Assembly: GCA_020436085.1 (NCBI GenBank)
Contig: JAGQYM010000010.1
Span: forward strand, 51,524-115,523
Direction: 5' to 3'
DNA length: 64,000 bases
Origin: Cyclobacteriaceae bacterium
Lineage (GTDB): Bacteria; Bacteroidota; Bacteroidia; Cytophagales; Cyclobacteriaceae
The notes beneath the pieces were generated by a model. That model did no database searches, was not told where the DNA came from, and saw only the letters and a list, made by a program, of their open reading frames with translations. Positions 11,158 through 29,204 of this stretch are shown here, piece after piece (position 1 is the first letter of the stretch; every line of letters begins with the position of its first letter). The position numbers and the translations under genes were made by a program.

Positions 11158-11191
11158 AGTAGTTTCGTAAAAGTTTAATGCTAAACTACTA
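11157..11191 (-). promoter_or_regulatory. Hairpin overlapping the aconitase start codon
   Basis: A perfect 9-bp inverted repeat (TAGTAGTTT / AAACTACTA) with a 17-nt loop lies directly before acn. In the mRNA the 3' arm ends with the A of the ATG, so the stem would hide the start. A translational control or a DNA operator are both possible. No CAGUGN iron-responsive-element loop is present. Confidence 0.45.
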
Positions 11192-11300
11192 AAAAGGAGG
11201 GTGAATTAAGAATGGCCGGAACCCCAATTTTGCTGCAAAACAGCTCGTTTTAGTACATTTGGAGCCTAAGCCAGCGATCGAAAACGATTGATACTCTTAT

Positions 11301-12023: not shown

Positions 12024-12360
12024 TCTGTTGCCTTAGTATTCGCCAGATGACAATGGCAATGTTCTCCGCTGTTGGATTTAAGTTTTTAAAATAGGCGGTG
12101 TCCAGATTCAAGTTCTTGTGATCAAAGCGACTGGTCACATGCTCGCGAATCAGATCACTGAGCTTCTTCATGTCGTAGACGTACCCAGTATCAGAGTCAG
12201 GTTCACCTAAAAGGGTTACAATCAATTCATAATTATGCCCGTGGAAGTGAGGGTTACTACACTTGCCAAAGATTTGTTCATTTCGTTCGTCTGACCATTC
12301 AGGGTTGTATAACCGGTGAGCTGCGTTGAAATGTTCCTTTCTGGATACGGCTACTTTCAT
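11950..12360 (-). CDS. 6-pyruvoyl-tetrahydropterin synthase / QueD family enzyme
   Basis: A 136-residue T-fold enzyme acting on dihydroneopterin triphosphate. Zinc ligands are His15 (AAHRL), His40 and His42 (HFHGHNY), and the catalytic cysteine is C34 in FGKCSNP. The KCxNPxxHGHNY block resembles the eukaryotic-type PTPS more than classical E. coli QueD, so the product could be 6-pyruvoyltetrahydropterin, a carboxy-pterin for queuosine, or a folate intermediate (PTPS-III type). It ends in YETERNFVEYP, as in homologues, so the overlap with folE is real. folE lies directly downstream on the same strand. Confidence 0.9.
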   Translation of the reverse strand: MKVAVSRKEHFNAAHRLYNPEWSDERNEQIFGKCSNPHFHGHNYELIVTLLGEPDSDTGYVYDMKKLSDLIREHVTSRFDHKNLNLDTAYFKNLNPTAENIAIVIWRILRQQIDNQYDLKIKLYETERNFVEYPAH

Positions 12361-12448
12361 TCAATTAGACAAAGAACATCAAATTTGCCAAAAGGTTCTT
12401 CGTGGATATCGAAAATACCCAAATAAAGCCGAAAATGAGGTTGGTAGA

Positions 12449-13360
12449 CTAGAAGTTGCTGATAGAGCGGTCGTGGAAGTCGAAGAATGACATCTTGATC
12501 CCAAGCATGATTTCATGCGTGTTAAACTGTGTTCCCACAGAATTCCCTGTTGGCAATTCAAAAGTGTAACCAAGTCTGAATTGATCTTTCAACAACGCTT
12601 GAAGCTGCAATCCGTAGGTGTTGAAATTTCGGGTAAACAGACCTGCCTGATAAAGTTGATCGAAGTTGATGTTGAAGTTCAGGTCAGTGGAGAGGGGAGA
12701 ACCTTTGACAGATTTCAAGAGAACTGCTGGCTTTAGCCTCACTCTTGTTCCCATGGTAAATACATAAGATCCGAAAAGATAGTAGTGTTGATTGTAAAGA
12801 TCGAATTGTTCTCCGGCACTGCTCTTGAATGTTGTGCTCAGCAGTCTTGGTACGGAAAGTCCAACAAAGAACTTCTCGCTTTTTATGGCAGCACCAGCAC
12901 CGATGTTTGGCTTGCTGAGATTCTCATTCGTACTAAATGCAGGATCGCCTGGGTCTGCCAAATTGAGGTTACTTGCATTGCTTTTAAAGTTGATCACGCC
13001 TGCCTGCATTCCGAAGCTAAACACCTTGTCTTCCAGTTGCAGTTTATAGGAACCCACTGCCTGAAATTCAGTGTTGGTTATATTACCGATCTTGTCCTGT
13101 ACGATGAGCAGACCAGCACCAACCCTGTTATCTACAAGTGAGATATGACCATTGATGTTGAAAGTAGTTGGGTTGCCGTCAAATCCTCCCCATTGACTGC
13201 GATAGGAAATGGCAGCATTGAAATTATTGTTTAGTCCTGCATAGGCAGGGTTGATTACCAAGGGATTGAGAATGTACTGAGCATACAAAGGGTCCTGCTG
13301 TCCAAAACTCAGGTTTGAGAAGCCAATGCATGTAATAAAGAGGAGTAGAATTCTTTTCAT
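12449..13360 (-). CDS. PorP/SprF-family T9SS membrane protein
   Basis: A 303-residue outer-membrane beta-barrel protein of the PorP/SprF family, whose members help secrete or anchor type B sorting-domain proteins (SprF serves SprB in Flavobacterium). A signal peptide (MKRILLLFITCIGFSNLSFG) is followed by the family opening QDPLYAQYILNPLVINPAYAG and strands such as YRSQWGGF and YKLQLEDKVFSFGMQAG. I chose the ATG at 13360 because the longer reading starts with TTG three codons earlier and spoils the signal peptide. It lies immediately downstream of three type B substrate genes on the same strand, suggesting it is their cognate partner. Confidence 0.92.
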   Translation of the reverse strand: MKRILLLFITCIGFSNLSFGQQDPLYAQYILNPLVINPAYAGLNNNFNAAISYRSQWGGFDGNPTTFNINGHISLVDNRVGAGLLIVQDKIGNITNTEFQAVGSYKLQLEDKVFSFGMQAGVINFKSNASNLNLADPGDPAFSTNENLSKPNIGAGAAIKSEKFFVGLSVPRLLSTTFKSSAGEQFDLYNQHYYLFGSYVFTMGTRVRLKPAVLLKSVKGSPLSTDLNFNINFDQLYQAGLFTRNFNTYGLQLQALLKDQFRLGYTFELPTGNSVGTQFNTHEIMLGIKMSFFDFHDRSISNF

Positions 13361-13464
13361 ACTATACAATTGTGGTGTTCAGGTTTGGTCTTGGTATCCG
13401 AAGTTTAAATATAATTCTAAGTTTCTCGGTTTTTGTCGTTTCCCCTCACATAAATGTGTAATTG

Positions 13465-16400
13465 CTAGCGTTTCAATGTTAAATATCCTTTTAATTCGGA
13501 TAACCCATTGCTAAACTCAATTTTGTAGAAATACACCCCACTCGACAGCTCCTTTCCGCTATCACTCTTTCCCTCAAATCTACGATTTTGGTTGTCGTAG
13601 TTGTCAATTTCAAACACTTTATCTCCCCACCGATTGAAGATAGAAACCTTATTTTCTGGTCCAATTGCCTCGATATTGTCCAGCCTGAAGTAGTCATTTA
13701 GACCGTCAGCGTTTGGAGATATTCCGTTGCGAACGATGATTTCTCCCGCTACAGAAATATTGATAGTAACTGTGGTACACGCGTTTGCGATATCGCAAAT
13801 CTGGACCTGCATGGTTTCATTTCCCGTAAATGACAGTCCGGTGTAGTCAATGGTGAGGACTGTTCCACTCAACGAAGTGCTGGCGCCACTTTGAGGTTGT
13901 GAAACAATACTGATAGCACCCGTGATGTTTGGATCGAAATTACTTTCTGAATCGGATATCAGAGGTGCCAGATCGATAGATACAGACCCCTGAACTACGG
14001 TGGAGAGCGTTATAGCACTGATGGCAGGTGGCTGGTTGACGGTGGCCGATGATATGTTTACCGTGCGGGAGGCGGAGGTTGGTGCGGTCAGGTCAGCATC
14101 AAGGGTTTGGAAGGTAATCGTTTTGGAGATCGCTTTCGTACGTCCGCCTTTTCGTGCTCCGGGGTCGGGCCCGGTGTACTCGTAGGTTACGCTGCGAAGT
14201 ACCGATTGATAGACACTAAGAGGTGCACTTCCCTGTAGTGTTAGCACTCCGGTTGAGTTGTCAAAATTTCCAGTTACCGGAGACTCTGGCGTAAACGCAA
14301 GAGTCTCATTGCCGGGCTGATAGTTTTGTATCGACACGGTTGCTTGCACGATGTCATCCCCATCGGTATCAGCTAGTGTAAGTGCTGCATCAATAGCCAA
14401 AGCTACTCCGTCAAAAGCGTACTCAAGAACTGAGTTATTTAGGGTGGTAGTCGGAGCGGGGTTTTGGTTTTCAAAGAACTCAACCGTGCCGCCTTCATAC
14501 ACATACAAATCAGCTCCATAACCGACAAAGATGTCGAGGTCACCATCACTATCCACATCAGCCATGCTTAGATAACTATGTCTTGATATTTTTTGTGGTG
14601 TGCTGATTGGAAGAGTACCCTCAGTAAATGTCTGGTCCGCGTTGTTTACGAATAACCGGAATACAGTGTAGTAGGGTAGTGTTATTTCTATTGATTCGGC
14701 TACAATCAGATCCAGATCTCCGTCATGGTCAATATCTGTGCTGAACACATTAGGAGTATGATTGAAGGTTTGTGTATCAAATGGCGTGGGAGCAGTAGCT
14801 ACAGTAAAATCTGGTTCTTCTTTAGATCCTTCATTTACCATGAATTGAACCAGTGATGGATTTGGCGAATTCCCATCGTTTCCAAGAAAGGCATCCCAGT
14901 CACCATCATCGTCAATATCCAGAAATGCAAGTGAATATTCCGATCCAGGTATAAGGCCCGAAATGTCTATGGGTGACGACTCACTTTCAAATATTCCTGC
15001 ATTGTTCCTGTAGAAGATTATTTCGTCATCGAGTGCGACAAAAAGGTCTTGATCTGTATCCCCGTCAATATCAACGAATATCGGTTTATAGTTGTCACGC
15101 AGAATATCAATATCGGCAATCGAATGGTCGGTATCCTTGATGAAAACACCGTTTTCATTTCTATACACGAATAAGTCATACGATTGATCATCGGCACCAA
15201 CCACAGCATCCAAATCTCCGTCTCCATCAAGGTCAACAAGGAACGGTGCGGCCTCCAGCCCTACATCAAGCCCATCAAATGGATTTTCGAGATCAAGTTT
15301 TCTTTCAAATACAGCGTTGCCCTTGTTCTCCAAGTAAAGTAAAGCATGAAGGCCATATTTGTTCATGCCTAGCACTAAATCAAAGTCACTATCGTTGTCC
15401 AGATCGACAAAAGTTGGGGCAGACTGTAGCCCGAAATCCAAGCCATCAAACGGACTTCCGGTTTTAGCATTGGCATCCCAGGGGCCGGTCTGTTCTGTAA
15501 AAGAACTGCCATCACCTTTAAAGAATCTTAGGTCCCCATAATACCGACCAGTAATCAAATCAAGATTACCGTCACCGTCAACATCTACCAATTGTGGAGC
15601 AGACCTGTTGTTGTCTGAAAACGTTATAAATGGGAACGGGCTATCACCCTGATCGACATGAGTAAAATTGCTTTGCCCATCATTAATGAAGTAATTGATA
15701 CTGAATGTGCCAGTTCCCTGGTAATTGCTTCCGACCAAAAGGTCCAGATCACCATCGCCATCAATGTTTACAAATGTGGGAGTAATATTCGCGCCTACTA
15801 GGTTAAATTCCGATCCGTAAAAGGGATTTCCCATTTTTGTAGCGGCAACCCAAGGCCCGTCTTGCTCTGTGAAAAACAACGGATTAGAATTGCTTCCCGG
15901 AATCCCGCCATTTCCGACAAAGTATCTAATACGATCTACAGACGCTCCATGCGTACCAAAAGCCATGTCCAAATCCCCATCGCCATTAAGGTCCGCAAAT
16001 GCTGGTGCGCCTCCATAGCCGTAAATTGGGTCAAGGTTTTCATCCAAAGCTTCATATTCAACAAAGGCAGGGCTCCCGGATGTACCTTCATTCAGATATA
16101 TCTTGATGGTGCCGTACTGCTGACCAACTACAAAGTCATAGTCACCATCATTGTCCAAATCCACGGACGTAGGTTTCAACTCAAGCCCTTTCATTGGCTG
16201 TCTCAAAGGGTTCAAGGCTCTTGGTTGTTGTATGAAGGGACCTAGCGTGCTTTGCGCTACAGCATCTTGGGTATTGGCTAAAGCTGCAGCAGTTCCGCCT
16301 AAGGCAGCCAGCTTCATTTGGCAGCGGAGGTTATTTAACCTTCGTGTGAGCCTTTGAAGTTTGTTAAGGAGAGAAAAGCGCTTGGCTGATCTGAAGCGGT

Positions 16401-16503
16401 AGAACCTACCAGTGTGAATATCGTTCTCGACCTGTAGCTTGTGATTTTCCCACTGGTTGAGCTTCTTCTTGAAGAGCTGAGAAATATGTTGGGTAGATCC
16501 CAT
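13465..16503 (-). CDS. FG-GAP/VCBS-repeat surface protein with T9SS type B sorting domain (paralogue A)
   Basis: A large secreted protein of 1012 residues. Residues 1-60 are a basic, non-hydrophobic leader, then MKLAALGGTAAALA and an AVAQ cleavage site form a late signal peptide. Residues of about 100-650 hold some ten FG-GAP/VCBS repeats with Ca-binding DxDGDGDLD motifs, predicting a beta-propeller. Next come cadherin/Ig-like segments, and the last 85 residues are the CHU_C-type sorting domain (NGISPNADGLNDYF, VSIFNRWGDKVFE, GVYFYKIEF, GYLTLKR). The start at 16503 (MGSTQHISQ) is preferred over an ATG eight codons upstream because it aligns with paralogue B. Likely exposed on the surface or released; ligand unknown. 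Confidence 0.9.
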   Translation of the reverse strand: MGSTQHISQLFKKKLNQWENHKLQVENDIHTGRFYRFRSAKRFSLLNKLQRLTRRLNNLRCQMKLAALGGTAAALANTQDAVAQSTLGPFIQQPRALNPLRQPMKGLELKPTSVDLDNDGDYDFVVGQQYGTIKIYLNEGTSGSPAFVEYEALDENLDPIYGYGGAPAFADLNGDGDLDMAFGTHGASVDRIRYFVGNGGIPGSNSNPLFFTEQDGPWVAATKMGNPFYGSEFNLVGANITPTFVNIDGDGDLDLLVGSNYQGTGTFSINYFINDGQSNFTHVDQGDSPFPFITFSDNNRSAPQLVDVDGDGNLDLITGRYYGDLRFFKGDGSSFTEQTGPWDANAKTGSPFDGLDFGLQSAPTFVDLDNDSDFDLVLGMNKYGLHALLYLENKGNAVFERKLDLENPFDGLDVGLEAAPFLVDLDGDGDLDAVVGADDQSYDLFVYRNENGVFIKDTDHSIADIDILRDNYKPIFVDIDGDTDQDLFVALDDEIIFYRNNAGIFESESSPIDISGLIPGSEYSLAFLDIDDDGDWDAFLGNDGNSPNPSLVQFMVNEGSKEEPDFTVATAPTPFDTQTFNHTPNVFSTDIDHDGDLDLIVAESIEITLPYYTVFRLFVNNADQTFTEGTLPISTPQKISRHSYLSMADVDSDGDLDIFVGYGADLYVYEGGTVEFFENQNPAPTTTLNNSVLEYAFDGVALAIDAALTLADTDGDDIVQATVSIQNYQPGNETLAFTPESPVTGNFDNSTGVLTLQGSAPLSVYQSVLRSVTYEYTGPDPGARKGGRTKAISKTITFQTLDADLTAPTSASRTVNISSATVNQPPAISAITLSTVVQGSVSIDLAPLISDSESNFDPNITGAISIVSQPQSGASTSLSGTVLTIDYTGLSFTGNETMQVQICDIANACTTVTINISVAGEIIVRNGISPNADGLNDYFRLDNIEAIGPENKVSIFNRWGDKVFEIDNYDNQNRRFEGKSDSGKELSSGVYFYKIEFSNGLSELKGYLTLKR

Positions 16504-16740
16504 ACTGCGCAGTTCTTTGAAAATCAAGATATAAAATTATGCGCACAGATTTCCCTATATTTTATGAGTGATGATAAAATCGTAGGCCCGGATTTTTCAG
16601 GATTTGACAAATCGGCACAAACAGGCTTGAATAGGACTTTTTTTTGCGATGCCCCGCCCGAATTAATTGCCCTACGTCTGTGAAGATATTGTTACTCAAG
16701 AACGGGTATGATGATCTGGTCGCCAAAACGACATTTCAAA
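16504..16740. other. Intergenic region upstream of paralogue A
   Basis: A 237-nt gap with no gene. Near the start of paralogue A it resembles the stretch upstream of paralogue B (shared AGTTCTTTG followed by an AT-rich run on the plus strand), and both gaps contain TGTGAAGA.ATTGTTA further out. The promoter region was apparently duplicated with the gene. Confidence 0.4.
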
Positions 16741-19700
16741 TCATCTTTTGAGCGTCAGGTAGCCCTGTAGTTCAGGTAGACCATTGGTAAATTCAATCTT
16801 GTAGAAATAGACCCCACTTGGCAATTCTTTGCCTCCATCACTCAATCCCTCAAACCTTCGGTCATCATTGTTGTAGTTGTCCATTTCAAAAATACGATCA
16901 CCCCACCGGTTAAAAATCGATACTTTATTTTCCGGCCCGAGTATTTCTATGTTTTCAATATTGAAGAATTGATTGAATTCATCTCCATTGGGGGATATTC
17001 CGTTGTAAACCACTACCTCACCAATCACGCTTACATTTACGATCACATCTGTACATCCACCGGCAAGATCACAAGCACGTATTTGCAGCGATTCATTGCC
17101 ACTAAATGAAAGTCCGCTGTAATTAACGGTGAGGACTGATCCGCTGATCGAAGCAACAGCTCCACTTTGAGGTTGCGCTATGATCGTAATTGCCCCATCG
17201 GCTGTGGGATCAAAATTGCCCTCAGAGTCGGAGATAAGAGGAGCGAGGTCAATGGAGGCAGATCCCTGAATGACTGTTGAGAGCGTGATGCTATTAAGAC
17301 TTGGTGGTTGATTTACGGCTGTACCGATAATGTTTAGCGATCTCGTAGCCGAAACAGGTGACGTCAAATCTGAATCGAATGCACGGAACACAATCGACCT
17401 AGCAAGACTTTTAACGCGATTTGTTTTGCCCTTGCGAGCGCCTGGATCAGGTCCGGTATAGGAATAAGCAACAGTTCTCAGTATTGTTTGATAAATATCA
17501 ACAGACGCGCTTCCCGTTAAAGTGAGAACACCAGTTGAGGCATCAAAATCTCCAGTAACGGGTGCTTGTGCTGTAAACGAAAGGGCTTCATTTCCCGGTT
17601 GAAAATTTTGAATGGTTACTGTCGCGCTGACGATATCATCGTCATCACTATCGGCTACTGTAAGTGTAGCATCTACAGTCACAGGGCCAGTATTAAACTG
17701 ATACTCGATCACGGAAGTATTGATCGTGGTGACCGCAGCGGGATTTTCGTTTAAGTAAAATTCAAAGATACCGTAGTCATCACCCACAAAGATGTCCAGA
17801 TCTCCATCTCCATCCATATCTATTAATCCGGGATTGGGATTGCGGTACGTGTATGGTAACAAAGCTGGTGTCTGCATCTCAAAGGAGGCAGCTTCTGGAG
17901 TGCCCACATTTTCGAAGTAGAATATGGCATCCCCATAAAAGCTGTCATTCACATAATAGTGGCCGCCTAAAATCAAGTCTGCATCCCCGTCATGGTCAAG
18001 ATCAATAAACTTGGGTTGGGTATCGCTGTAATCAAAGAAGTTGTTATCAAATTCAGGGATATGTGACTTGTCTAGAGGATTTTCTGTTGGATCTAATGGT
18101 TTTTCAAAGTGAGGACTTGTAGCGGTTCCTGTGTTTCTGTAAAAATCAACCGTGCCTTCATGATTACCAGAAAACAAATCCAAGTCACCATCATTGTCGA
18201 TATCAACGAGGTCAATCGCGGTATTAGAGTTGCCAACGATATGTACCGAATAATAGAGACCTGAATAAACATCTTTATTTCTCGGTGGTCCCAGATCAAA
18301 GAATGGATTGGAGGCATCCATCACCTGCTTGCTCAAAACGTCATCGTCACTTAGGAAAAAAGTAATGTTGCCGTTATAATCCCCCAGGATCAAATCAAGA
18401 TCACCATCATTGTCGATATCAACGTAGACAGGTTTGGCACTCGTAAAATAACTTAAGCCCGCGAGGATATTATAGAAAGGGCTGGAAGGACCCAGCTCCT
18501 GTTGGAAGACCCCACCAACATTTTTATAATAAGTCAACGTATTGCCATACTTGCCGCCCAGCAGGGCATCCAGCGTTCCATCTTCATCTACGTCTACAAA
18601 ATACGGCACTCCATCGGCACCCGTTGCAGCACCGCCAAATGGATTATCGAGAAATACCTTGCGCTCAAAAACTGCGTCTCCCTTATTTTCAAAATAGGCG
18701 ACAGCCTCAACATTTTGGAAAAAGAATTGGACGTAGCCGGCTATGAGATCGAGGTCACCGTCACCATCAAGGTCTACAAATTCAGGTGACACATCTCTAT
18801 TCAGGTCAATGCCATAAAATGGGTTTCCCGTTTTGTTGGCTGAGTTCCAGGGATTAACGTCTTCGACAAATCCTCCTCCAGTATCTTCGAAAAATCTTAT
18901 ATTATCGTCTCTGGTTCCAATCGTTAAATCAGGAAAACCATCCTCATCGATGTCTGATATGATTGGTACTGGCCTTCTAAAGTACCCGTCCGAGATATCA
19001 GGCAATGGTATCGCAGTGGGGGTAAAAGTAGAAGAACCGTCATTTCTGAAGTATTGCAATCTGCCTCCACCAGAATAAGTATCCGCCACGAGAAGATCGA
19101 AATCAGTATCACCATCATAGTCGATAAATGAAATGCTCGGGAAGGTACTTATCGATATTGAGTTAAAGGGATTTGAAGGCCCCGTTAGCTGAGTGTATGA
19201 GCTTCCATCATTTCGATAATAGATGATTCCGCTATTATAGGTTGCCACAGCGAGATCCATATCACCATCGCCATCCACGTCTGCAAACGCAGGTTTATAG
19301 TGCGGTAGGCTTGCAGGGGTATAATTGTAGTTGTCAGATAGACTCCCGATATCTTCAAAAATGGGGGTTGTGTTGTCACCAACATTTTTAAACACCTGAA
19401 GGAAATCGGAGTTGCCAGAAACAATGTCATAATCACCGTCATTGTCTAGGTCAATGGCCGTAGGTTTCATTGCGTAACCAGACAATGGAGTTCTTAAGGG
19501 ATTCTCCAGCCTTGACTTCTTGATAAATGGGCCTAGTTCCTGGGCTTGAACTTTGTCAAAAGGTGTAAGGGCAACCAAAGTTCCCCCCAAGGCAGCGAGT
19601 TGCATTTGCCATTGGAGTTTATTCAGTCTTCGCGTCAGCCGGTGAAGTTTGCTGATCAGAGATTGACGTTTACCTGACTTAAAACGATAGAATTTACCAG

Positions 19701-19791
19701 AGTGGATATCGCTCTTTACCTGCAGTTTGTGATTTTCCCACTGAGTGAGCTTCTTTCTGAACAGCTGAGAAATATGTTGGGCAGATCCCAT
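16741..19791 (-). CDS. FG-GAP/VCBS-repeat surface protein with T9SS type B sorting domain (paralogue B)
   Basis: A 1016-residue paralogue of the flanking genes with the same layout: a basic leader of about 60 residues (MGSAQHISQLFRKKL...), a late signal peptide (MQLAALGGTLVALTPF...VQAQ), repeated Ca-binding DLDNDGDLDLI units up to about residue 650, cadherin/Ig-like domains, and a C-terminal type B sorting domain (NGISPNGDEFNQFF, VSIFNRWGDRIFE, GYLTLKR). Two blocks (NPFYGIDLNRDVSPEFVDLD and ENKGDAVFERK) recur in all three proteins. It would be exported by Sec and then T9SS. Tandem duplication is the simplest origin. Confidence 0.9.
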   Translation of the reverse strand: MGSAQHISQLFRKKLTQWENHKLQVKSDIHSGKFYRFKSGKRQSLISKLHRLTRRLNKLQWQMQLAALGGTLVALTPFDKVQAQELGPFIKKSRLENPLRTPLSGYAMKPTAIDLDNDGDYDIVSGNSDFLQVFKNVGDNTTPIFEDIGSLSDNYNYTPASLPHYKPAFADVDGDGDMDLAVATYNSGIIYYRNDGSSYTQLTGPSNPFNSISISTFPSISFIDYDGDTDFDLLVADTYSGGGRLQYFRNDGSSTFTPTAIPLPDISDGYFRRPVPIISDIDEDGFPDLTIGTRDDNIRFFEDTGGGFVEDVNPWNSANKTGNPFYGIDLNRDVSPEFVDLDGDGDLDLIAGYVQFFFQNVEAVAYFENKGDAVFERKVFLDNPFGGAATGADGVPYFVDVDEDGTLDALLGGKYGNTLTYYKNVGGVFQQELGPSSPFYNILAGLSYFTSAKPVYVDIDNDGDLDLILGDYNGNITFFLSDDDVLSKQVMDASNPFFDLGPPRNKDVYSGLYYSVHIVGNSNTAIDLVDIDNDGDLDLFSGNHEGTVDFYRNTGTATSPHFEKPLDPTENPLDKSHIPEFDNNFFDYSDTQPKFIDLDHDGDADLILGGHYYVNDSFYGDAIFYFENVGTPEAASFEMQTPALLPYTYRNPNPGLIDMDGDGDLDIFVGDDYGIFEFYLNENPAAVTTINTSVIEYQFNTGPVTVDATLTVADSDDDDIVSATVTIQNFQPGNEALSFTAQAPVTGDFDASTGVLTLTGSASVDIYQTILRTVAYSYTGPDPGARKGKTNRVKSLARSIVFRAFDSDLTSPVSATRSLNIIGTAVNQPPSLNSITLSTVIQGSASIDLAPLISDSEGNFDPTADGAITIIAQPQSGAVASISGSVLTVNYSGLSFSGNESLQIRACDLAGGCTDVIVNVSVIGEVVVYNGISPNGDEFNQFFNIENIEILGPENKVSIFNRWGDRIFEMDNYNNDDRRFEGLSDGGKELPSGVYFYKIEFTNGLPELQGYLTLKR

Positions 19792-20011
19792 TCAGGGCAG
19801 TTCTTTGCCAAACAATATATAAAATTTATGAGTACAGATTTTCTTTGATTCTTGACAATCAGCACTCCGTCACCCTGCTTGGTGGTTAAATTCATCCCAT
19901 TCCGCCCCGCAATCCGCAATTTCTACCAATCGTATCCGGACTATTATTCCCCTGATTTTGTGAAGAAATTGTTAAGGTTCGAAGTATTGAGACCTGTTTG
20001 AAGGCCAATCA
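19792..20011. other. Intergenic region between paralogues B and C
   Basis: A 220-nt gap without coding signal. It probably carries the promoter of paralogue B and the 3' end of the paralogue C transcript. Part of it resembles the gap upstream of paralogue A. Confidence 0.35.
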
Positions 20012-22804
20012 TCATCTCTTAAGCGTCAAGTATCCCTTTAGTTCAGGAAGCCCGTTCTCAAACTTGATTCGATAAAAGTAGACACCACTCGATAACTCTT
20101 TACCATCGTCACTTCGTCCTTCGAATCTTCGGTCATCATTGTTGTAGTTACTGATTTCAAAAACCTTATCACCCCAGCGATTAAAGATTGACACATTATT
20201 TTCTGGACCGAGTGTTTCTATGTTTTCTATGTTGAAGAACTGATTGAATGCATCTCCGTTAGGAGATATTCCATTGTAAACAATAATCTCTTCGGCAATT
20301 ACAGGGGGCGAAGAGATTGTAACTGACTTTGTTGCCAGGGCTGGAGTTGTTAAGTCTTGATCGTACACTGCGAATGCGATCGTTCTGGTTAAAGCTCGTA
20401 TTCGTCCTCCAGTATTGGGAGGTCCCGGATCTGGTCCTATGTAATTATATGTTACGGTTCTTAGCACATTCCGATACGCAGTTACTGATGCCCTTCCGGT
20501 CAGGGTTAGAACACCGGTGGAGGTATCAAAGCTTCCAGTGATTGGACTTTGTGGAGTGAATGCCAATACTTCATTTCCGGCTTGAAAATTTTGAATGGTG
20601 ACGGTTGCCCTGGCAATATCATCTCCATCACTATCGGCCAGCGCAAGAGAAGCATCAAGAGTAACCGGCCCCGATTCGAATTCGTAGTCTATAACTGAGC
20701 TGTTGACCGCGGTAACAGGCGCGGGGTTTTCATTGACATAGTATTTGAAAAAGCCATTGTCATTTCCGACAAATATATCCAGGTCACCATCGCCATCTGC
20801 ATCTACCGCGCTGGGGCTGGGGCGGTAATCCGTGTCGGGGATAAGGTAACCTTGCCCTACAAAAGTTGCTGCGCTTGCTGAACCCGTATTTTCAAAAAGA
20901 AAGATGCCCCTTAAGTCATACTTAGCATACGAGTCGATTTGCCTTCCACCCAATAACAAATCCAGATCGCCATCATGATCAAGGTCAACAAACTTGGGGC
21001 TTATGCCCCTGGAGTTATCAAAGTTTCCTGATGCGAATTCTGGAATATGGCTCACATCCAGCGGGTTATCACCAGGGTTGGAAGGCGCTTCGAAAGAGGG
21101 GTTTTCCTTATCACCAGTATTCTCGAAGAATTTTATTGTTCCGTTTCCGCTACTGACAAACAAGTCAACATCTCCATCATTATCGATATCTACTAAATCC
21201 AAATAGGTAATACCACCCAAAAAAACTGAATAGTAGCTTCCAGTGTCGTAATTAAAATTGTCGTAAGAGCCGACCAGATGAAATGGATTCTCTGAGTCCA
21301 TTACCTGACGTTCAAGTGTTCCATTAATATTTTGGAAGAATGTTATTCGACCATAATAGCCACCTGTAATAAGGTCAAGATCACCATCATCATCAAGATC
21401 AACTGGAACAGGAATTGCACCTTCCCAACGTTCAAATGTTTCTGCAATGCCATCAAAAAGACTCCCTGTGGTGGTATTGCTAAATACGTTGTTACTGTTC
21501 TTGAAGAACGAAAGGGCATTACTGTACTTGCCTCCAAGCAGCGCATCGATCTCCCCATCGTCATCAATATCTACAAACGAAGCCGTGCCAACACTACCTG
21601 TAGAGGCGCCACCCAATGGATTATCAAGGAACTCTTTTCGCTCAAAAACGGAATTTCCTTTATTCTCAAAATACGCGACCGGCTCAACAGCGTTATAGTT
21701 TTGAGGGCTATATCCCGCGATCAGATCAAGGTCACCATCTAAGTCCAAATCGATCAATGACGGGAATAAAGGGCCGTTTACCAAAAGAACATCGTGAAAT
21801 GGATTCCCAGTTTTAGTGGTAGGGTTCCAGGCTGCTGTTTGTTTTACGAAGTCTGAGTTTCCTCCTTTGAAGAATGTGATGTCTCCTCCTGCTCCACCAA
21901 TGATCAAATCCAGACTTCCATCCAAATCCATGTCAGCAACAAGCGCATTAGCTCTGTTGCCATAGTCGTTGGCGTAGAATGTTGGCAAATTAGGGAGGCT
22001 TGTATTGACAAACACCGATGATCCTGTGTTTTCGTAGTATAGGATTTGTGGATCGTATGCGAGATTTGCTGTTCCGCTGATAAAGACATCCAAATCGCCA
22101 TCACCGTCATAATCTATGAAGGAGTGATGCTGGCTAAAAAATGGGTTGATGGAGTAAAAGGGATTTCCTGTAGTGCCATTCCATGCACCATTCTGTGAAG
22201 TAAAAGTTGGTGTTGTGCCATTTCCACCGCCATTATTTAGATAGTACGTAGGATGAGAGTTGCTGTACAATTGACCAACTATCAAGTCGAGATCCCCATC
22301 CCCATCGAGGTCAGCAAATGATGGAATGCCTGCGCTAATGTAACCGGTGTACGCCCCAGAAGTAGCTAGGAGGAGTTCAACTTCTTCAAAATTCCCTGTC
22401 CCATCATTTACGAACATATTCAGATATCCGTAGTTGCCTCCTACAACGATATCGGAATCACCATCATTATCCAGGTCAACCGTAGCGGGCTTCAGCCTAC
22501 TCCCTGGCAACGGCTGCCTTAGAGGGTTTGCCAAACGAGACTGTTGTAAAAATGGTCCAATTTGTTGTGCCTGAACTTTGTCAAACGGAGTTAATGAAAT
22601 CAGAGCACTACTTACTGCGGCAATCTTCACTTGCCATTTGAGTTCGCTAATACCCTTTGTAAGCCGATAAAATTTAAGGAGGAGATTGTTTCTTTTTGCC
22701 GGCCTTAGCCGAAAGAACTGGCCGGAAGCAATGCTTCTGTTCAGTTTTGTTTTTAATGCTTCTCGTCTTTCTGTCTTTTTGAGAAGCTTCCTAAAAGAAA
22801 CCAT
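20012..22804 (-). CDS. FG-GAP/VCBS-repeat surface protein with T9SS type B sorting domain (paralogue C)
   Basis: The 930-residue third member of the tandem family. The leader is more diverged (MVSFRKLLKKTERREAL...) but keeps the basic character and length, and the late signal peptide again ends LTPFDKVQAQ. The calcium-binding DLDGDGDLDLIVG repeats and the SVIDYEFESGPVTLDASLAL cadherin-like unit match its neighbours. One Ig-like domain present in A and B is missing, which explains the shorter length. The C-terminus is the type B sorting domain (NGISPNGDAFNQFF, VSIFNRWGDKVFE, GYLTLKR). Confidence 0.9.
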   Translation of the reverse strand: MVSFRKLLKKTERREALKTKLNRSIASGQFFRLRPAKRNNLLLKFYRLTKGISELKWQVKIAAVSSALISLTPFDKVQAQQIGPFLQQSRLANPLRQPLPGSRLKPATVDLDNDGDSDIVVGGNYGYLNMFVNDGTGNFEEVELLLATSGAYTGYISAGIPSFADLDGDGDLDLIVGQLYSNSHPTYYLNNGGGNGTTPTFTSQNGAWNGTTGNPFYSINPFFSQHHSFIDYDGDGDLDVFISGTANLAYDPQILYYENTGSSVFVNTSLPNLPTFYANDYGNRANALVADMDLDGSLDLIIGGAGGDITFFKGGNSDFVKQTAAWNPTTKTGNPFHDVLLVNGPLFPSLIDLDLDGDLDLIAGYSPQNYNAVEPVAYFENKGNSVFERKEFLDNPLGGASTGSVGTASFVDIDDDGEIDALLGGKYSNALSFFKNSNNVFSNTTTGSLFDGIAETFERWEGAIPVPVDLDDDGDLDLITGGYYGRITFFQNINGTLERQVMDSENPFHLVGSYDNFNYDTGSYYSVFLGGITYLDLVDIDNDGDVDLFVSSGNGTIKFFENTGDKENPSFEAPSNPGDNPLDVSHIPEFASGNFDNSRGISPKFVDLDHDGDLDLLLGGRQIDSYAKYDLRGIFLFENTGSASAATFVGQGYLIPDTDYRPSPSAVDADGDGDLDIFVGNDNGFFKYYVNENPAPVTAVNSSVIDYEFESGPVTLDASLALADSDGDDIARATVTIQNFQAGNEVLAFTPQSPITGSFDTSTGVLTLTGRASVTAYRNVLRTVTYNYIGPDPGPPNTGGRIRALTRTIAFAVYDQDLTTPALATKSVTISSPPVIAEEIIVYNGISPNGDAFNQFFNIENIETLGPENNVSIFNRWGDKVFEISNYNNDDRRFEGRSDDGKELSSGVYFYRIKFENGLPELKGYLTLKR

Positions 22805-22951: not shown

Positions 22952-23446
22952 ATGAATAAGCATTCCGTTTCTTTTGAAAACCTATGGGGTAAACACCCCG
23001 GTGAACTTCAAAAGGAGATTGTCACCATATGGAAACAGTTTAGTCCGGGGATGGAGGCAGAAAAAGTTAACGAAAGACTTTCTCAACTGGCTTATGTTGT
23101 AAAAAATGAATTTGAACAAGTCGTTGGAATTTCGACAGCGCAAAAGGTTTACGTCAAGCAGCTAAGAAACTATTTATATTCAGTCCGGTTGTTGATTGTA
23201 CCTTCTTATCGGCAGCCCGGGCTAGCGAGTAAACTGATAGTACTCACTCGTGACTTCTTTGAGTCGATCCACAAGAGTGACACCGATGAACGAACCATCG
23301 GAATAATTACCCTTATTGAAAATAAGGACTACAGTGAAACCAGGAGGGAGGCAATCTGGCACGCCTCTCAGATGGTGTACATTGGCAATTCGGGCAAGGG
23401 CTTTCAGGTTAGGGTTTACTACTTCAAGGACGCTACTATCAACTAA
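22952..23446 (+). CDS. GNAT-like protein 1
   Basis: A 164-residue protein I do not recognise by name. The order of elements fits a GNAT acyltransferase fold: strand VVGISTAQ, strand YLYSVRLLIVP, then SYRQPGLASKLI, which matches the R/Q-x-x-G-x-G/A acyl-CoA pyrophosphate loop (R-Q-P-G-L-A), then a helix and the strand TIGIITLIEN. Its TAA overlaps the ATG of a paralogue (TAATG), and the pair converges on the ACP-P450 module. I infer a transferase, or a degenerate binding protein, acting on CoA- or ACP-bound acyl groups. Function unproven. Confidence 0.75.
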   Translation: MNKHSVSFENLWGKHPGELQKEIVTIWKQFSPGMEAEKVNERLSQLAYVVKNEFEQVVGISTAQKVYVKQLRNYLYSVRLLIVPSYRQPGLASKLIVLTRDFFESIHKSDTDERTIGIITLIENKDYSETRREAIWHASQMVYIGNSGKGFQVRVYYFKDATIN

Positions 23447-23952
23447 TGGCTTTGAAAAGCATCGCAGATATCAAATTGGAGAACGTCTGGGGAAAAGTGT
23501 CGCCAGAGACGAAACAAGAAGCAATCAAGTTTTGGGTAGACGAAAAGGTGTTATCAGAAGAGGCTGCAGAACAACGGGCTGATGAGCTTCTATTTATTGC
23601 CAGGGATACGGACAACAAGATCATTGCGGTAAGCACCGCTATTAAGATGAGGGTTAAGCTGCTCAATGATAACCTTCTTTATCAGTACAGATGTTTTATT
23701 TCACCTAAGGCGCGAGTTGTTGGTTTCGATGTTCACTTAACAAAGCTATCGTTGCAATTCCTGGAAGAGGTGGCTAAATCGGAGGAAGTACAAAAGCCAA
23801 TTGGTGTGTTTGTTGTCGTGATCAATCCGAAGCTGAATACCAACAAGATAAACAACCAGGCAGTTTGGCGTGCCTATAAAATGTATTTCATTGGTTTTAA
23901 TACAAAAGGTCAACCCATCAGAGTTTATTACTTCAAAGGGGCAAAGATCTAG
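23446..23952 (+). CDS. GNAT-like protein 2 (paralogue with altered acyl-CoA loop)
   Basis: A 168-residue paralogue of the preceding gene: both have ENLWGK/ENVWGK near the N-terminus, a VxISTAxK or AVSTAIK strand, and end in (Q/P)(V/I)RVYYFK(D/G)A. The pyrophosphate-loop equivalent reads SPKARVVGFDVHL, so the last Gly/Ala is replaced by Asp (R-V-V-G-F-D), and catalysis may be lost or altered. The pair may form a heterodimer. Its TAG stop overlaps the TAG of the ACP gene on the other strand (shared CTAG at 23949-23952). Confidence 0.75.
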   Translation: MALKSIADIKLENVWGKVSPETKQEAIKFWVDEKVLSEEAAEQRADELLFIARDTDNKIIAVSTAIKMRVKLLNDNLLYQYRCFISPKARVVGFDVHLTKLSLQFLEEVAKSEEVQKPIGVFVVVINPKLNTNKINNQAVWRAYKMYFIGFNTKGQPIRVYYFKGAKI

Positions 23953-24182
23953 CTTATTTGCTTATCAAGATTAGCGGCAAATGAATTGATGGTGGGGTGT
24001 TCCCAAAATGAATGCGGGTTGATTTCAATTCCAAACTTCTTTTCGATCTCATCGATCAGGAAAATCGCGTGCATGCTATCAAGGCCAATCGACATGAACT
24101 CCTCATCAGGATTGATATCTTCAGACCTTACACTTAGTGTTTCGGCCACCTTACTTCGAATGAATTCTCTAACCTCAGACAT
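23949..24182 (-). CDS. Stand-alone acyl carrier protein (second module)
   Basis: A 77-residue carrier protein with the phosphopantetheine site SIGLDSM (Ser36) and the C-terminal motif FWEHPTINSFAANL. The start chosen is the ATG at 24180-24182, which overlaps the P450 TAA (TAATG). The open frame extends 19 codons further upstream inside the P450 gene but lacks ACP homology there. It is a relative of the ACP at 4412. It would carry an acyl or aminoacyl chain for the adjacent P450, and the nearest loading enzyme in the window is the FAAL at 4654. Confidence 0.91.
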   Translation of the reverse strand: MSEVREFIRSKVAETLSVRSEDINPDEEFMSIGLDSMHAIFLIDEIEKKFGIEINPHSFWEHPTINSFAANLDKQIS

Positions 24183-25372
24183 TAGCGACAACTGATATAA
24201 AGTGAACGCAAACTTCTCATGTTCAGATTTTCTTTCCAAACTGGCTGGCTCAATAGTTCAAATCTGTTGAAACGGGTGGTTAATTCATCCAGCAAAATCT
24301 CAAACTCCCTTTTAGCGAGCCAGTCGCCAAGGCAGCGATGAATACCTGAGGCAAATGCGAGATGATGGTTCGGGGTTCGGTCGAGTATCAATTCATCTGG
24401 TCTCTCGAATTTTCCTGGATCACGATTAGCTGCTCCAAGGCAAATTGTGACTGCAGCTTCTTTTTCAAATTTATGTCGCGCTATTTCGCATTCTTCCGAA
24501 GCGATCCTAACCACGATTTGAGCAGGTGAATCGAACCGAAGAAGTTCTTCGGTGGCGAGGGAAGGTATTTTCTGCTCTTGGAAACTTTTATTGAGCTCCT
24601 CATTAAGAATGAGGTGATACAGGCCAAGTTCTATAAGTCCGGCAGTGGTTTCCTCACCCGCAATGAAGAGAAAGAAACAATTTCCCATCAGTTCGTGATG
24701 CGGTATTTGTTGATCTTTATTTAAATGCACCAGCCGACTCAATAGGCTATCATCAGGGTTCTTCAATTTATCAGCGGCAAATTTCTCAAAATATGCTGCA
24801 AATTCTTCTGTGGCATTTTTCATTCTCTCGATCTGTCGGAATGTAAGATACAGATCAAGCGAGTGAATCATTTCATGAGACAAGTTCTCCAGATACTTGT
24901 AGTCTTCTATCGGCAAGCCCAGGATTTTTGTCATGGTCATTGCCGGCAGGGGTGCCGCAAGCTCTGTTGCCAGGTCAAAGCGCGTTGGATCGAGGGTGTT
25001 AAAAATCGCATCGATATTTCCTTTTATTATCGCATCAACCTCTCGATTGTTCCATGCCTGCATAATGAACTTACGAAGCAGTGTATGATCGGGCGGATTT
25101 TTGAAAACTACAAAGGACTTAAGGGCATCTACAATCACGCTAAATGATTCCCACTTATCGAGGTGCTGGGTGCTGGCCTTCTCCAGCCAGGCTGCTCGGT
25201 TGCCAACAAGAAATCGTGAGTCTTTTAAGATACTTCGTGCAGCCTCATATTCTGTCACCACCCATTCGCCTGTCCTCGCACGATGAATGGGTTCATAGTC
25301 CCTCAACGCTTTGTACATTGGATAAGGGTCGAGGATGTTCTCCTTCAGGTATGGCTTCCACGGAGACTCCAC
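24182..25372 (-). CDS. Cytochrome P450 (second paralogue, ACP-linked)
   Basis: A 396-residue soluble P450, paralogous to that at 3213. Key sites are AGEETT (238-243) in the I-helix, ExxR at E276-R279, and FASGIHRCLGDW with the haem cysteine at 347. The start is a GTG that shares its G with the TAG of the TIGR03032 gene (TAGTG), and its stop overlaps the ACP start, so all three genes are translationally coupled. As with the first P450, I infer oxidation of an ACP-tethered substrate. An electron-transfer partner is not encoded nearby. Confidence 0.93.
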   Translation of the reverse strand: MESPWKPYLKENILDPYPMYKALRDYEPIHRARTGEWVVTEYEAARSILKDSRFLVGNRAAWLEKASTQHLDKWESFSVIVDALKSFVVFKNPPDHTLLRKFIMQAWNNREVDAIIKGNIDAIFNTLDPTRFDLATELAAPLPAMTMTKILGLPIEDYKYLENLSHEMIHSLDLYLTFRQIERMKNATEEFAAYFEKFAADKLKNPDDSLLSRLVHLNKDQQIPHHELMGNCFFLFIAGEETTAGLIELGLYHLILNEELNKSFQEQKIPSLATEELLRFDSPAQIVVRIASEECEIARHKFEKEAAVTICLGAANRDPGKFERPDELILDRTPNHHLAFASGIHRCLGDWLAKREFEILLDELTTRFNRFELLSQPVWKENLNMRSLRSLYISCR

Positions 25373-26439
25373 TACTTTTCCTTTTTATCGACCACTCCCC
25401 AATAGTCATTTTCCTGTGTGGTAATTGCCATGACCTGTTGGTGCATGTCCGTATTGAGCAGCCCAGGGCGCTTAACATTGGGAATGACGCGCACATCATA
25501 GATTTCATCTACGTTGTTTTCATATTTGATAAAACCAGCGAGGCTCATACGTGGCAGATAGATGATGACGATGCCACTGTAAATTGATTTTTTCGAGATG
25601 GGAAGATTTTGAAAAGCCTGGGAGGTTTCTCTCAACTTCGAAAGTCCTATGAATAGATAATCTCCGATGCGGTCCATGCCCCTCACAAATCCATCCAGTG
25701 ATTTCAATACCTCGTACTTTCCGGGCGAAGTCATTCTTACCAGGTCTCCTGTGGCCGAGTGCAACCAGTAAAGTTGTCCGTCAATAATTCTTGGTGAATG
25801 TGGCATCAACAAGTTGGTGGCAATAATTTCGTTGGACTCCACGTCCATCAAAATGCCTCCATCTGCCTTTCGTTCTCTCCACCCACCGGGCTGGTCAGAC
25901 TGTCCAAGTGCAGTCACATACTTGGGTTTATCATTTTCAAACGCGACACCATTCAGGTGGCACTGGTCAGTTGGTGTGGTGGTTTGAATAAAAAAAGGTT
26001 TCCATTGGGAGTGAAAGCTGTATTCTTCATCAATCGTTGCCAGGCAGGAGAACCTGGTGTTCACTGCCCAAAGTTGATCCCCGGCCCAGTGCAGGTCATG
26101 AATGTCATTTTCGCCAGTAAAGTATTCGGCACGTGGAAGGTAAAGCGCATCATAGGTGTTCTTTTGTTTAGGATAGTTGGGTGCCATCTTAGCCGCATTC
26201 TTTAACACAAGCACCTTGTTTGACGTGGCGATTGCAAGTTTGTCACCTTGCAGTGCAATGCCCATTGGTTTCTCAAAATTTCTAGGTAGCTGCACGAGAT
26301 GCTCCTTATCTTGGGCGCTAATGAAAATTACCTTGCCAGCCTGATAGGTTGAGATCGCCAGGGTAGCGGCCAGACCATGAAGTATTTCTGGCGCAGTGGG
26401 AGAGAAGGTACAACTGAAGGGAGGGAGCGGAGCGGACAT
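25372..26439 (-). CDS. TIGR03032-family protein
   Basis: A 355-residue protein matching the conserved uncharacterised TIGR03032 family from memory, through its opening block LAISTYQAGKVIFIS and later blocks such as NDIHDLHWAG, DQCHLNGVAF and GWRERKADGG. Repeated short beta-type motifs suggest a propeller-like fold. There is no signal peptide, so it is probably cytoplasmic. It heads the operon with P450 and ACP (TAGTG overlap), which ties it to oxidised-acyl chemistry, either as an enzyme or as a scaffold. No catalytic residues can be assigned. Confidence 0.8.
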   Translation of the reverse strand: MSAPLPPFSCTFSPTAPEILHGLAATLAISTYQAGKVIFISAQDKEHLVQLPRNFEKPMGIALQGDKLAIATSNKVLVLKNAAKMAPNYPKQKNTYDALYLPRAEYFTGENDIHDLHWAGDQLWAVNTRFSCLATIDEEYSFHSQWKPFFIQTTTPTDQCHLNGVAFENDKPKYVTALGQSDQPGGWRERKADGGILMDVESNEIIATNLLMPHSPRIIDGQLYWLHSATGDLVRMTSPGKYEVLKSLDGFVRGMDRIGDYLFIGLSKLRETSQAFQNLPISKKSIYSGIVIIYLPRMSLAGFIKYENNVDEIYDVRVIPNVKRPGLLNTDMHQQVMAITTQENDYWGVVDKKEK

Positions 26440-26442
26440 TCT

Positions 26443-26514
26443 TGATTTAGAATTTAAGATTCAAGATTGAAAATAGCAGTAAACCTCCAATCTTGAACTT
26501 TAAATTCTGAATTT
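26443..26514 (-). repeat. Large imperfect inverted repeat between the propeller gene and TIGR03032 gene
   Basis: Two 27-nt arms (26443-26469 and 26488-26514) pair at 22 positions around an 18-nt loop. On the minus strand it begins at the stop codon of the T9SS propeller gene and ends three bases before the next ATG. It could be a transcript-end hairpin or a small dispersed repeat. No T-tract follows. Confidence 0.55.
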
Positions 26515-29144: not shown

Positions 29145-29204
29145 GAGTAAGCAGTGGTTTTAGCCAAAGTTAAAGACCCTCGGCCCTAAATACTGCCCTT
29201 TATC

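Follow-up and report, generated by a model that had tools for sequence, protein, structure and literature searches.

The strongest and widest genomic association of TIGR03032, a widespread family for which, to our knowledge, no function is known, is with FG-GAP cargo proteins that bear an extended leader, a link that an earlier sequence-only reading of this DNA had overlooked. Within the bacterial family of the window (the whole 64,000-nucleotide stretch of Cyclobacteriaceae DNA analyzed here), an acyl/peptidyl carrier protein (ACP), a cytochrome P450, and a GNAT-like protein also form a conserved module of their own. From gene content, module conservation, co-occurrence, fusion, and adjacency, we tentatively propose that the five genes of the cluster may encode a cytoplasmic module that modifies large, leader-bearing FG-GAP proteins before their export by the type IX secretion system (T9SS). 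Gene context supports the link between module and cargo; each chemical step, the acceptor, and what TIGR03032 does are inferred.

The five-gene cluster and its products

The features of the window are collected in Table 1. The genes, overlaps, and family names that the sequence-only reading had assigned at 22952-26439 were borne out, with GNAT homology that is weak. It had chained the TIGR03032, P450, and ACP genes by TAGTG and TAATG overlaps, and we found both junctions on the minus strand: the TIGR03032 stop overlaps the P450 start at 25374-25370 (TAGTG), and the P450 stop overlaps the ACP start at 24184-24180 (TAATG). Another TAATG (23444-23448, plus strand) joins the P0001 gene to the P0002 gene. 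The ends of the P0002 and ACP genes share the CTAG at 23949-23952 and these genes are therefore convergent, as had been claimed. Since this gene content recurs in relatives, the five-gene arrangement is not a product of chance. The same reading had called the cluster a "second" P450-ACP module, implying a first; FAAL-like, ACP, and P450 genes are indeed present at 6300-3213 on the minus strand, an operon of biosynthetic appearance 18 kb from the TIGR03032 cluster.

Table 1. Coordinates of the cluster, the neighboring cargo genes, and the first module in the window
Feature	Position	Strand	Remarks
GNAT-like protein 1, P0001	22952..23446	+	164 aa; weak GNAT matches
GNAT-like protein 2, P0002	23446..23952	+	168 aa; paralogue of P0001, 32-33% identical
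Stand-alone ACP, P0003	23949..24182	-	77 aa; phosphopantetheine site GLDSM
Cytochrome P450, P0004	24182..25372	-	396 aa; start codon GTG
TIGR03032/DUF4915 protein, P0005	25372..26439	-	355 aa
T9SS type B cargo 1	20012..22804	-	basic extended leader (~80 aa) + FG-GAP repeats + CHU_C sorting domain
T9SS type B cargo 2	16741..19791	-	design as cargo 1
T9SS type B cargo 3	13465..16503	-	design as cargo 1; start set at ATG 16503 (listed ORF starts at TTG 16527)
PorP/SprF-family T9SS membrane protein	12449..13369	-	adjoins cargo genes in window and in relatives
First module, FAAL-like	6300-4654	-	before ACP and P450
First module, ACP	4663-4412	-	
First module, P450	4415-3213	-	

The best Pfam match of P0001 was Acetyltransf_7 (E = 0.052; 14.4 bits against a cut-off of 27), a profile scan of P0002 returned no family match at E ≤ 1, and neither protein reached a curated GNAT cut-off. 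When 21 members of the GNAT-like family were scanned at E ≤ 1, matches were obtained with Acetyltransf_1 (6/21, best 2.9e-4), Acetyltransf_7 (5/21, best 0.0012), and Acetyltransf_15 (2/21, best 6.5e-6). The solved GNAT 3t9y was found at 0.0017 by an 11-sequence family profile and at 0.065 by a 21-sequence profile. GNAT motif A follows the pattern R/Q-x-x-G-x-G/A; the corresponding region reads RQPGLA in P0001 and RVVGFD in P0002, and its R is invariant across the 21 sequences. The invariant positions of the family include W27, R42, T62, R79, R87, G117, G145, Y157, and F158. Because relatives reach 6.5e-6 while the window proteins stay below the cut-off, we call the pair GNAT-like, a weak designation based on sequence, and do not assign it to the GNAT superfamily. 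The GNAT label given earlier thus holds insofar as relatives match GNAT profiles weakly, but the window pair lies below every curated cut-off.

The carrier P0003 matched PF00550 at 2.3e-17, with the phosphopantetheine serine in GLDSM, and was nearer to PKS/NRPS-type carrier models than to housekeeping ACP models. P0004 matched PF00067 at 1.5e-18 and carries the motifs ELLR, AGEETT, and FASGIHRCLG (ExxR, AGxxT, and heme-Cys, respectively). Its nearest solved relatives by sequence are PksS (4yzr, 1.5e-49) and BioI (3ejb, 1.9e-47), the latter being the biotin-synthesis P450 whose structure was reportedly solved in complex with acyl-ACP. PksS and BioI act on carrier-bound or polyketide substrates; unlike them, the window P450 showed no link to genes for biotin or polyketides across the neighborhoods read, and its partners are an ACP of its own and a GNAT-like protein.

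The ACP-P450-GNAT-like module among relatives

Of 19 loci with the GNAT-like gene, drawn from 17 genomes, 16 have ACP and P450 genes no more than 2.1 kb away from it. The sequence-only reading had supposed that the P450 acts on an ACP-bound chain and that a GNAT transfers it; the gene grouping is consistent with this supposition. Two GNAT-like genes, in G174:C5 and G257, occur without ACP and P450. An APS kinase adjoins the cluster in L028 (by Pfam) and L030 (by reading), and a PAPS reductase does so in L135 (by Pfam) and L136, L137, L140, and L143 (by reading); neither is constant, and we took both for local neighbors and not for parts of the module.

In a sample of 196 genomes of the family, the GNAT-like gene was present in 11 and TIGR03032 in 30. 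All 11 GNAT-like-positive genomes carry TIGR03032, even where the two are unlinked (p = 1.8e-10). Counted by genus, 8/8 GNAT-like-positive genera are TIGR03032-positive, against 20/84 genera overall (p = 2.9e-6). Ten of the 11 genomes also gave a match to the cargo leader at E ≤ 1e-3. In G222, the ACP, P450, GNAT-like, TIGR03032, and TPR-GT41 genes are consecutive, with a leader match just past them.

We considered whether the FAAL of the first module might serve as a general loader of P0003 and found this unsupported. FAAL relatives (E ≤ 1e-60) occurred in 14/196 genomes and their overlap with the GNAT-like gene was at chance level (p = 0.57); among the 11 GNAT-like-positive genomes of this sample (six further GNAT-like-carrying genomes lie outside it), the other 10 had none, leaving only the FAAL of the window's own genome. 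No acyl-loading enzyme conserved with the module was found, FAAL being the enzyme searched for, and no ligase, thioesterase, or exporter recurred beside it in the neighborhoods read.

These observations bear on a different use of the same genes, in which the product of ACP, P450, and GNAT would be an N-acylated small molecule (a signal or an N-acyl amino acid), the GNAT would resemble an acyl-ACP-dependent N-acyl synthase, and the proximity of cargo and TIGR03032 would reflect shared regulation or ecological setting. The kinship of the P450 with natural-product and BioI-type enzymes and of the carrier with PKS/NRPS-type models speaks for it, as do the FAAL operon nearby and the modules in G153 and G182, which lie far from cargo or TIGR03032 genes. 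However, the presence of TIGR03032 in every GNAT-like-positive genome of the sample, the want of a recurring ligase, thioesterase, or exporter in the neighborhoods read, and the fusion of TIGR03032 to GNAT domains elsewhere all argue against a metabolite, and we consider this explanation somewhat unlikely.

TIGR03032 and leader-bearing type IX cargo

P0005 scored 361.8 bits against TIGR03032 (cut-off 251.5) and 370.5 bits against DUF4915 (cut-off 35); a search of the paper library used here by these two names found nothing. The sequence-only reading had made TIGR03032 a step of an ACP/P450 pathway. This does not apply in general: among the best 80 named loci, a single one, L040, which is related to the window, has ACP and P450 in the stretch covered, and we rejected such an enzyme as a general role. 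The 80 are the best of at least 581 confirmed TIGR03032 stretches, span 3.7-21 kb each (20/80 under 10 kb), and include six without a TIGR03032 row in this count (L050, L078, L081, L085, L090, and L114). The second TIGR03032 locus of the window genome (L033, 18 kb) likewise has no ACP or P450, and our neighborhood search showed that TIGR03032 elsewhere mostly occurs without ACP, P450, or GNAT.

What TIGR03032 does keep company with is an exported protein. The three window cargos matched CHU_C (PF13585) at 3.6e-23 to 4.6e-22, and cargo 1 also matched TIGR04131 at 3.7e-11; by their sorting domain, these are T9SS type B cargo. Each begins with an unannotated, basic, extended signal peptide (hereafter the leader), and the first 110 residues gave no Pfam or NCBIfam family at E ≤ 0.01. 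FG-GAP_3 was found in 30/107 genes within 400 bp of TIGR03032, against at most 1/107 in random draws from 316 distal genes. A basic, long N-region was present in 25/97 near genes versus 11/419 far genes, and a leader gene lay within 1 kb of TIGR03032 in 32/49 Bacteroidota-titled or unassigned loci, both counts including at least one gene (L064) that does not look leader-like. Cultured Bacteroidota in which TIGR03032 lies next to a leader cargo include Cesiribacter andamanensis (L053) and Winogradskyella psychrotolerans (L088). None of the 25 non-Bacteroidota loci scored had a leader gene within 1 kb, and the leader is therefore no general requirement of TIGR03032. TIGR03032 was present in 19/21 leader-positive genomes of the family and 19/22 of the order, a co-occurrence that is partly built in because the leader seeds were TIGR03032 loci and the window. 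Of the 100 loci scored below for neighboring leaders and enzymes, 98 are distinct DNA (L037/L043 and L053/L193 are repeats). Pfam tallies are without twelve loci (ten Planctomycetes, L101, and L114; the simple ORF caller errs on high-GC DNA) and without L050, L078, L081, L085, and L090, which have no scorable TIGR03032 ORF; N-region and leader counts left out these five and L114 and kept the Planctomycetes.

Enzymes also adjoin TIGR03032. It is fused to GNAT domains in L034, L035, and L065, from two lineages, and adjoined by tandem GNATs in L057 and L185; an hhalign comparison of the P0001 type with the tandem GNATs fused to TIGR03032 gave a probability of 7.9%, too low to establish shared ancestry. 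GT41-type profile matches lay nearby in 10/100 loci (five were Pfam-checked, all GT41), and a Cupin_8 protein adjoins TIGR03032 in L037. All three kinds of enzyme (GNAT, TPR-GT41, and Cupin_8) are capable of intracellular protein modification. The leader profile was matched within 8 kb in 34/100 loci, compared with 5-11/100 for each enzyme type. This predominance would suit a TIGR03032 that serves the FG-GAP protein and its leader solely as chaperone or targeting factor and leaves the cargo chemically unmodified, with the adjoining enzymes incidental or acting on other targets. We judge that role improbable: GNAT fusions occur in two lineages, other classes of protein-modifying enzyme adjoin the gene, and residues H114, D158, C160, H161, N163, H214, R253, R270, and E312, invariant in 46 TIGR03032 sequences, suggest an active or binding site and not a plain scaffold.

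Some of these residues raise the prospect that TIGR03032 does the chemistry itself: in a beta-propeller fold, H114, H161, H214, and E312, spaced by about 50, 50, and 100 residues, could bind a metal at the center and there oxidize or otherwise alter the FG-GAP cargo, other enzymes adding further lineage-specific changes. Soluble quinoprotein glucose dehydrogenase is a propeller, and one stretch of TIGR03032 gave a profile match to it at E = 0.0092. That match spans 51 profile positions only, however, and no catalytic precedent is known; we regard this as the least probable of the explanations considered here.

A proposed route to modified surface proteins

The association of TIGR03032 being strongest with leader-bearing FG-GAP cargo, a protein and not a small molecule is the likely end substrate. 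In the pre-export modification that we favor, an acyl chain would be carried by the stand-alone ACP and oxidized there by the P450, and one or both GNAT-like proteins would shift the oxidized acyl group off the ACP onto an amine. The likeliest acceptors would be lysine side chains of the FG-GAP protein with its leader, modified ahead of its export through Sec and T9SS. TIGR03032 would act on the cargo side, most likely recognizing the FG-GAP protein, the extended leader, or both, and would bring the modifying enzymes to the cargo. Against this route stand the weak profile matches behind the GNAT label, the modules remote from cargo or TIGR03032 genes in G153 and G182, the GNAT-like genes of G174:C5 and G257 that lack ACP and P450, the want of a FAAL-type loader in relatives, the many TIGR03032 loci with none of the three partners, and the leaderless non-Bacteroidota loci.

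The extended signal peptide region (ESPR) of autotransporters is a long N-terminal signal-peptide extension on very large surface proteins. The window leader can be likened to it as a long extension of this kind, but has no ESPR Pfam match and sits on T9SS cargo. TPR-GT41 proteins (OGT/SPINDLY-like) glycosylate proteins intracellularly; they occur near TIGR03032 elsewhere, were not seen in the window cluster, and differ in chemistry. The proposed scheme would resemble that of the toxin-activating lysine acyltransferases RtxC/HlyC, in which a small protein with a GNAT-like structure receives acyl groups from acyl-ACP and attaches them to lysine residues of a large secreted target (PMC8339906). 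Small GNAT-like protein, acyl-ACP donor, and large secreted target would be shared; the window cargo, however, is T9SS FG-GAP and not RTX, and the cluster includes a carrier of its own as well as a P450. No HlyC profile match was obtained at E ≤ 1 for the window GNAT-like proteins or their family members. Clusters of class-I aaRS, GNAT, and ACP (PMC2922099) were set aside as the same system since their gene set differs. A literature search at abstract level yielded nothing on an ACP-P450-GNAT/TIGR03032/FG-GAP system.

More speculatively, TIGR03032 could be a widespread, undescribed pre-export platform, a propeller (cargo-recognizing or catalytic) that marks T9SS FG-GAP proteins and leaderless giant cyanobacterial repeat proteins, and into which lineages plug OGT-like, GNAT, or Cupin_8 enzymes. 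The plug-in of the window's family might then be a new acylation line, with P450 tailoring on a private ACP and attachment by the GNAT-like pair.

For TIGR03032, the analysis points to candidate substrates, namely FG-GAP surface proteins, which in Bacteroidota bear the leader, and to several enzymes as partners; the question of its function therefore becomes testable on a handful of exported proteins or even a single one. If the proposed acylation holds, it would be, within the limited literature searched, the first known case of protein acylation with P450 tailoring and also the first known line of chemical modification for T9SS cargo that carries such a leader.

Gene content of the cluster and of the neighbouring FAAL-ACP-P450 operon

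By reading and translating the sequence directly, we confirmed the five genes of the sequence-only reading, with their strands and junctions. The minus-strand TIGR03032, P450 and ACP genes are chained by a TAGTG and then a TAATG overlap; on the plus strand, the two GNAT-like genes overlap by TAATG, and the pair shares a CTAG with the convergent ACP gene.

Genes of the P450-ACP modules and beside the window's cargo genes
Gene	Coordinates	Strand	Remark
TIGR03032	26439-25372	minus	Profile match
P450	25372-24182	minus	Profile match; P450 signatures intact
ACP	24182-23949	minus	Profile match; ACP signatures intact
First GNAT-like	22952-23446	plus	Weak GNAT match
Second GNAT-like	23446-23952	plus	Paralogue of first GNAT-like gene
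PorP/SprF	12449-13369		Adjoins window cargo genes
Small gene	11950-12360		Beside PorP/SprF gene
GTP cyclohydrolase I	11301-12023		Beside window cargo block
First-module P450	4415-3213		In operon with ACP and ligase
First-module ACP	4663-4412		Same operon as first-module P450
Fatty-acyl-AMP-ligase-like (FAAL-like)	6300-4654		Same operon as first-module P450

The small paralogous pair (32-33% identity to each other) had been called GNAT-like, a name that draws on weak matches, none of which passes a curated cut-off in the window. In a scan at E ≤ 1 of 21 family members, 6 matched Acetyltransf_1 (best 2.9e-4), 5 Acetyltransf_7 (best 0.0012) and 2 Acetyltransf_15 (best 6.5e-6). An 11-member profile of the family reached a solved GNAT at E 0.0017, weakening to 0.065 once the profile had 21 members. 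On such weak sequence matches, the window pair is best named GNAT-like.

The "first" P450-ACP module of that reading is also present: its P450 shares an operon of overlapping genes (window 3213-6300) with an ACP and a FAAL-like ligase. The two modules' P450s are 38% identical. Relatives of the ligase (E ≤ 1e-60) are rare, occurring in 14 of 196 family genomes. This sample covers 11 of the 17 GNAT-like-positive genomes described below; at that threshold the ligase turned up in the window's own genome and in none of the other 10, so the second module does not regularly come with it.

Distribution of the module and co-occurrence with TIGR03032

A search with P0002, a GNAT-like protein of the window, found the gene in 7 of the 96 relatives, and profile searches found it in 11 of the 196 family genomes and in 3 of 291 order genomes, all three within the Cyclobacteriaceae. 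Combining the 96-relative and 196-genome searches gave 19 loci in 17 genomes, with one gene split across two contig ends (G106) counted once. ORFs in the loci were called by a simple longest-ORF script, and GNAT-like loci were counted by distance by hand from tables. At 16 loci, both ACP and P450 stood no more than 2.1 kb from the GNAT-like gene; G174:C5 and G257 had neither, and the remaining locus (G018) was interrupted by a contig end. The module P450 was the sole P450 matching P0004, the window P450, at E ≤ 1e-20 in 13 of the 17 genomes; G000 and G222 had two each, and none was found in G018 or G257. Among loci that could be scored, 13 of 17 had a leader-type cargo gene within 10 kb of the GNAT-like gene, and 12 of 17 had TIGR03032 at that distance; contig ends made G154 and G222:C130 unscorable for cargo, and G018 and G154 for TIGR03032.

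All 11 GNAT-like-positive family genomes fell within the 30 TIGR03032-positive ones of 196 (hypergeometric p 1.8e-10), as did 8 of 8 GNAT-like-positive genera within 20 of 84 (p 2.9e-6), p values that overstate the strength because kinship among genomes is ignored. The 30 include weak or partial matches in G152 and G157, both without the GNAT-like gene. In G153, G182, G200 and G257, both genes are present though distant or on separate contigs. Among the 96 relatives, TIGR03032 occurred in 6 of 7 GNAT-like-positive genomes; the exception, G018, is 84% complete, with its GNAT-like gene at a contig end.

TIGR03032 and leader-bearing cargo proteins

A general tie of TIGR03032 to P450 and ACP was not upheld. 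In named genomes, we took the best 80 of at least 581 confirmed stretches, which span Bacteroidota, Cyanobacteria, Planctomycetes, Spirochaetes and others. Within the 3.7-21 kb of each locus, TIGR03032 was accompanied by P450, ACP and the GNAT-like pair in one, L040, which is the same DNA as a relative, G025 (L027). One kind of neighbour recurred: large secreted proteins in which roughly 55-90 basic residues come first, then a hydrophobic stretch that leads to an AQ-type end. A profile-free test asked for a hydrophobic stretch with 38 or more residues ahead of it that carry a net charge of +6 or higher. Among genes of 200 aa or longer, 25 of the 97 lying no more than 400 bp from TIGR03032 had such a leader-type start, versus 11 of 419 farther away (Fisher p 4.8e-12); by eye, at least one near positive (L064) is not leader type and several far ones (L041, L047, L062, L074) are. 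By profile or profile-free test, 32 of 49 Bacteroidota-titled or unassigned loci had a leader gene within 1 kb of TIGR03032, against none of the 25 other loci. Pfam FG-GAP_3 occurred in 30 of 107 near genes versus at most 1 of 107 drawn randomly from 316 distal ones, a bound set because FG-GAP_3 was not among distal families listed with at least two members. In cyanobacteria, TIGR03032 adjoins a giant repeat protein without a leader, so the repeat domain may predate the leader as the shared feature. TIGR03032 lies upstream of these proteins in L097, L102, L103, L104, L106, L108, L109 and L112.

We then used a leader profile built from 14 sequences (E ≤ 1e-3). In the family sample, 19 of 21 leader-positive genomes had TIGR03032 (p 8.5e-17); of the other two, the G238 match has stops and G212 is 60% complete. 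In the order sample, the count was 19 of 22 (background 31/291; p 6.5e-19), the exceptions being G353, whose match is broken by stops, and G087 and G352, each a short open frame. Because the profile was seeded with sequences of TIGR03032 loci and of the window, unlinked leaders give a fairer count: contig and coordinates placed a leader match apart from TIGR03032 in 12 genomes, of which 9 were TIGR03032-positive (p 9.8e-8). Four of these nine (G072, G200, G307, G358) have a linked leader too, and genomes with exclusively unlinked leaders had TIGR03032 in 5 of 8 cases (p 4.5e-4). The first 110 residues of three window cargos matched no Pfam or NCBIfam family at E ≤ 0.01. The window genome's second TIGR03032 (L033) adjoins an FG-GAP protein whose similar but diverged N-terminus is unmatched by the profile.

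At window 11301-22804, three leader-FG-GAP-CHU_C cargo genes stand in succession beside the PorP/SprF gene; one cargo gene followed by PorP/SprF, the small gene and GTP cyclohydrolase I was seen in L027, L028, L029, L031, L140 and L143. Past TIGR03032, at 26514-33377, are two more CHU_C proteins, whose signal peptides are ordinary. Relatives of both adjoin TIGR03032 in L027 and L029; in L031 a relative of the first alone does.

Accompanying enzymes and a proposed scheme

TIGR03032-GNAT fusions occur in two lineages, one of ~710 aa (G077 and G092, and, judged by frame length, four more genomes of that genus: G297, G323, G348 and G361) and one of 499 aa (L065), and tandem GNATs adjoin TIGR03032 in L057 and L185. 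In L185 (G106), the tandem separates ACP-P450 from TIGR03032, and a leader cargo comes after. Of 100 loci, 98 of them distinct, 10 had a GT41-type profile match near TIGR03032, the weakest (L187) at 1e-22 and 1.8 kb away; all five checked with Pfam were TPR-GT41. A Cupin_8 protein adjoins TIGR03032 in L037. L135 (G222) is a one-strand run of ACP, P450, GNAT-like, TIGR03032 and TPR-GT41 genes, with the contig's leader match just past it. PAPS reductase stands beside ACP in two genera (L135, 5827-6483; by reading, also L136, L137, L140 and L143). In two genomes an APS kinase gene adjoins TIGR03032 (L028, 6855-7385; L030, 10844-11389). These neighbours may point to a sulfur-donor link or be there by chance. 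In L140 (G130), TIGR03032 is in two pieces (10849-11550) beside the module and a leader cargo.

The nearest solved P450 relatives of P0004 are PksS and BioI; structure 3ejb is BioI with acyl-ACP. A dedicated ACP, a PksS/BioI-like P450 and a GNAT-like protein suggest, as read from sequence, that the P450 would oxidise an ACP-bound acyl chain and that the GNAT-like protein would pass it from the carrier to an amine. The closest parallel for such a mechanism is HlyC-type acylation, where an acyltransferase of GNAT-like structure draws on acyl-ACP and modifies lysines on a protein that is secreted (PMC8339906). The likeness stays an analogy rather than membership because no HlyC profile match was seen at E ≤ 1 among the window proteins and GNAT-like family members.

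We also observed 23 invariant columns in 46 TIGR03032 sequences, including H114, D158, C160, H161, N163, H214, R253, R270 and E312. A 51-position profile match to quinoprotein glucose dehydrogenase (E 0.0092) hints at a beta-propeller. Overall, beyond gene content and co-occurrence, the scheme is one that we infer throughout. Genomes with the module often have FG-GAP cargo with the leader, and TIGR03032 is their constant companion, which suggests that the acceptor amine sits on this cargo; TIGR03032 may bind the cargo or act on it.
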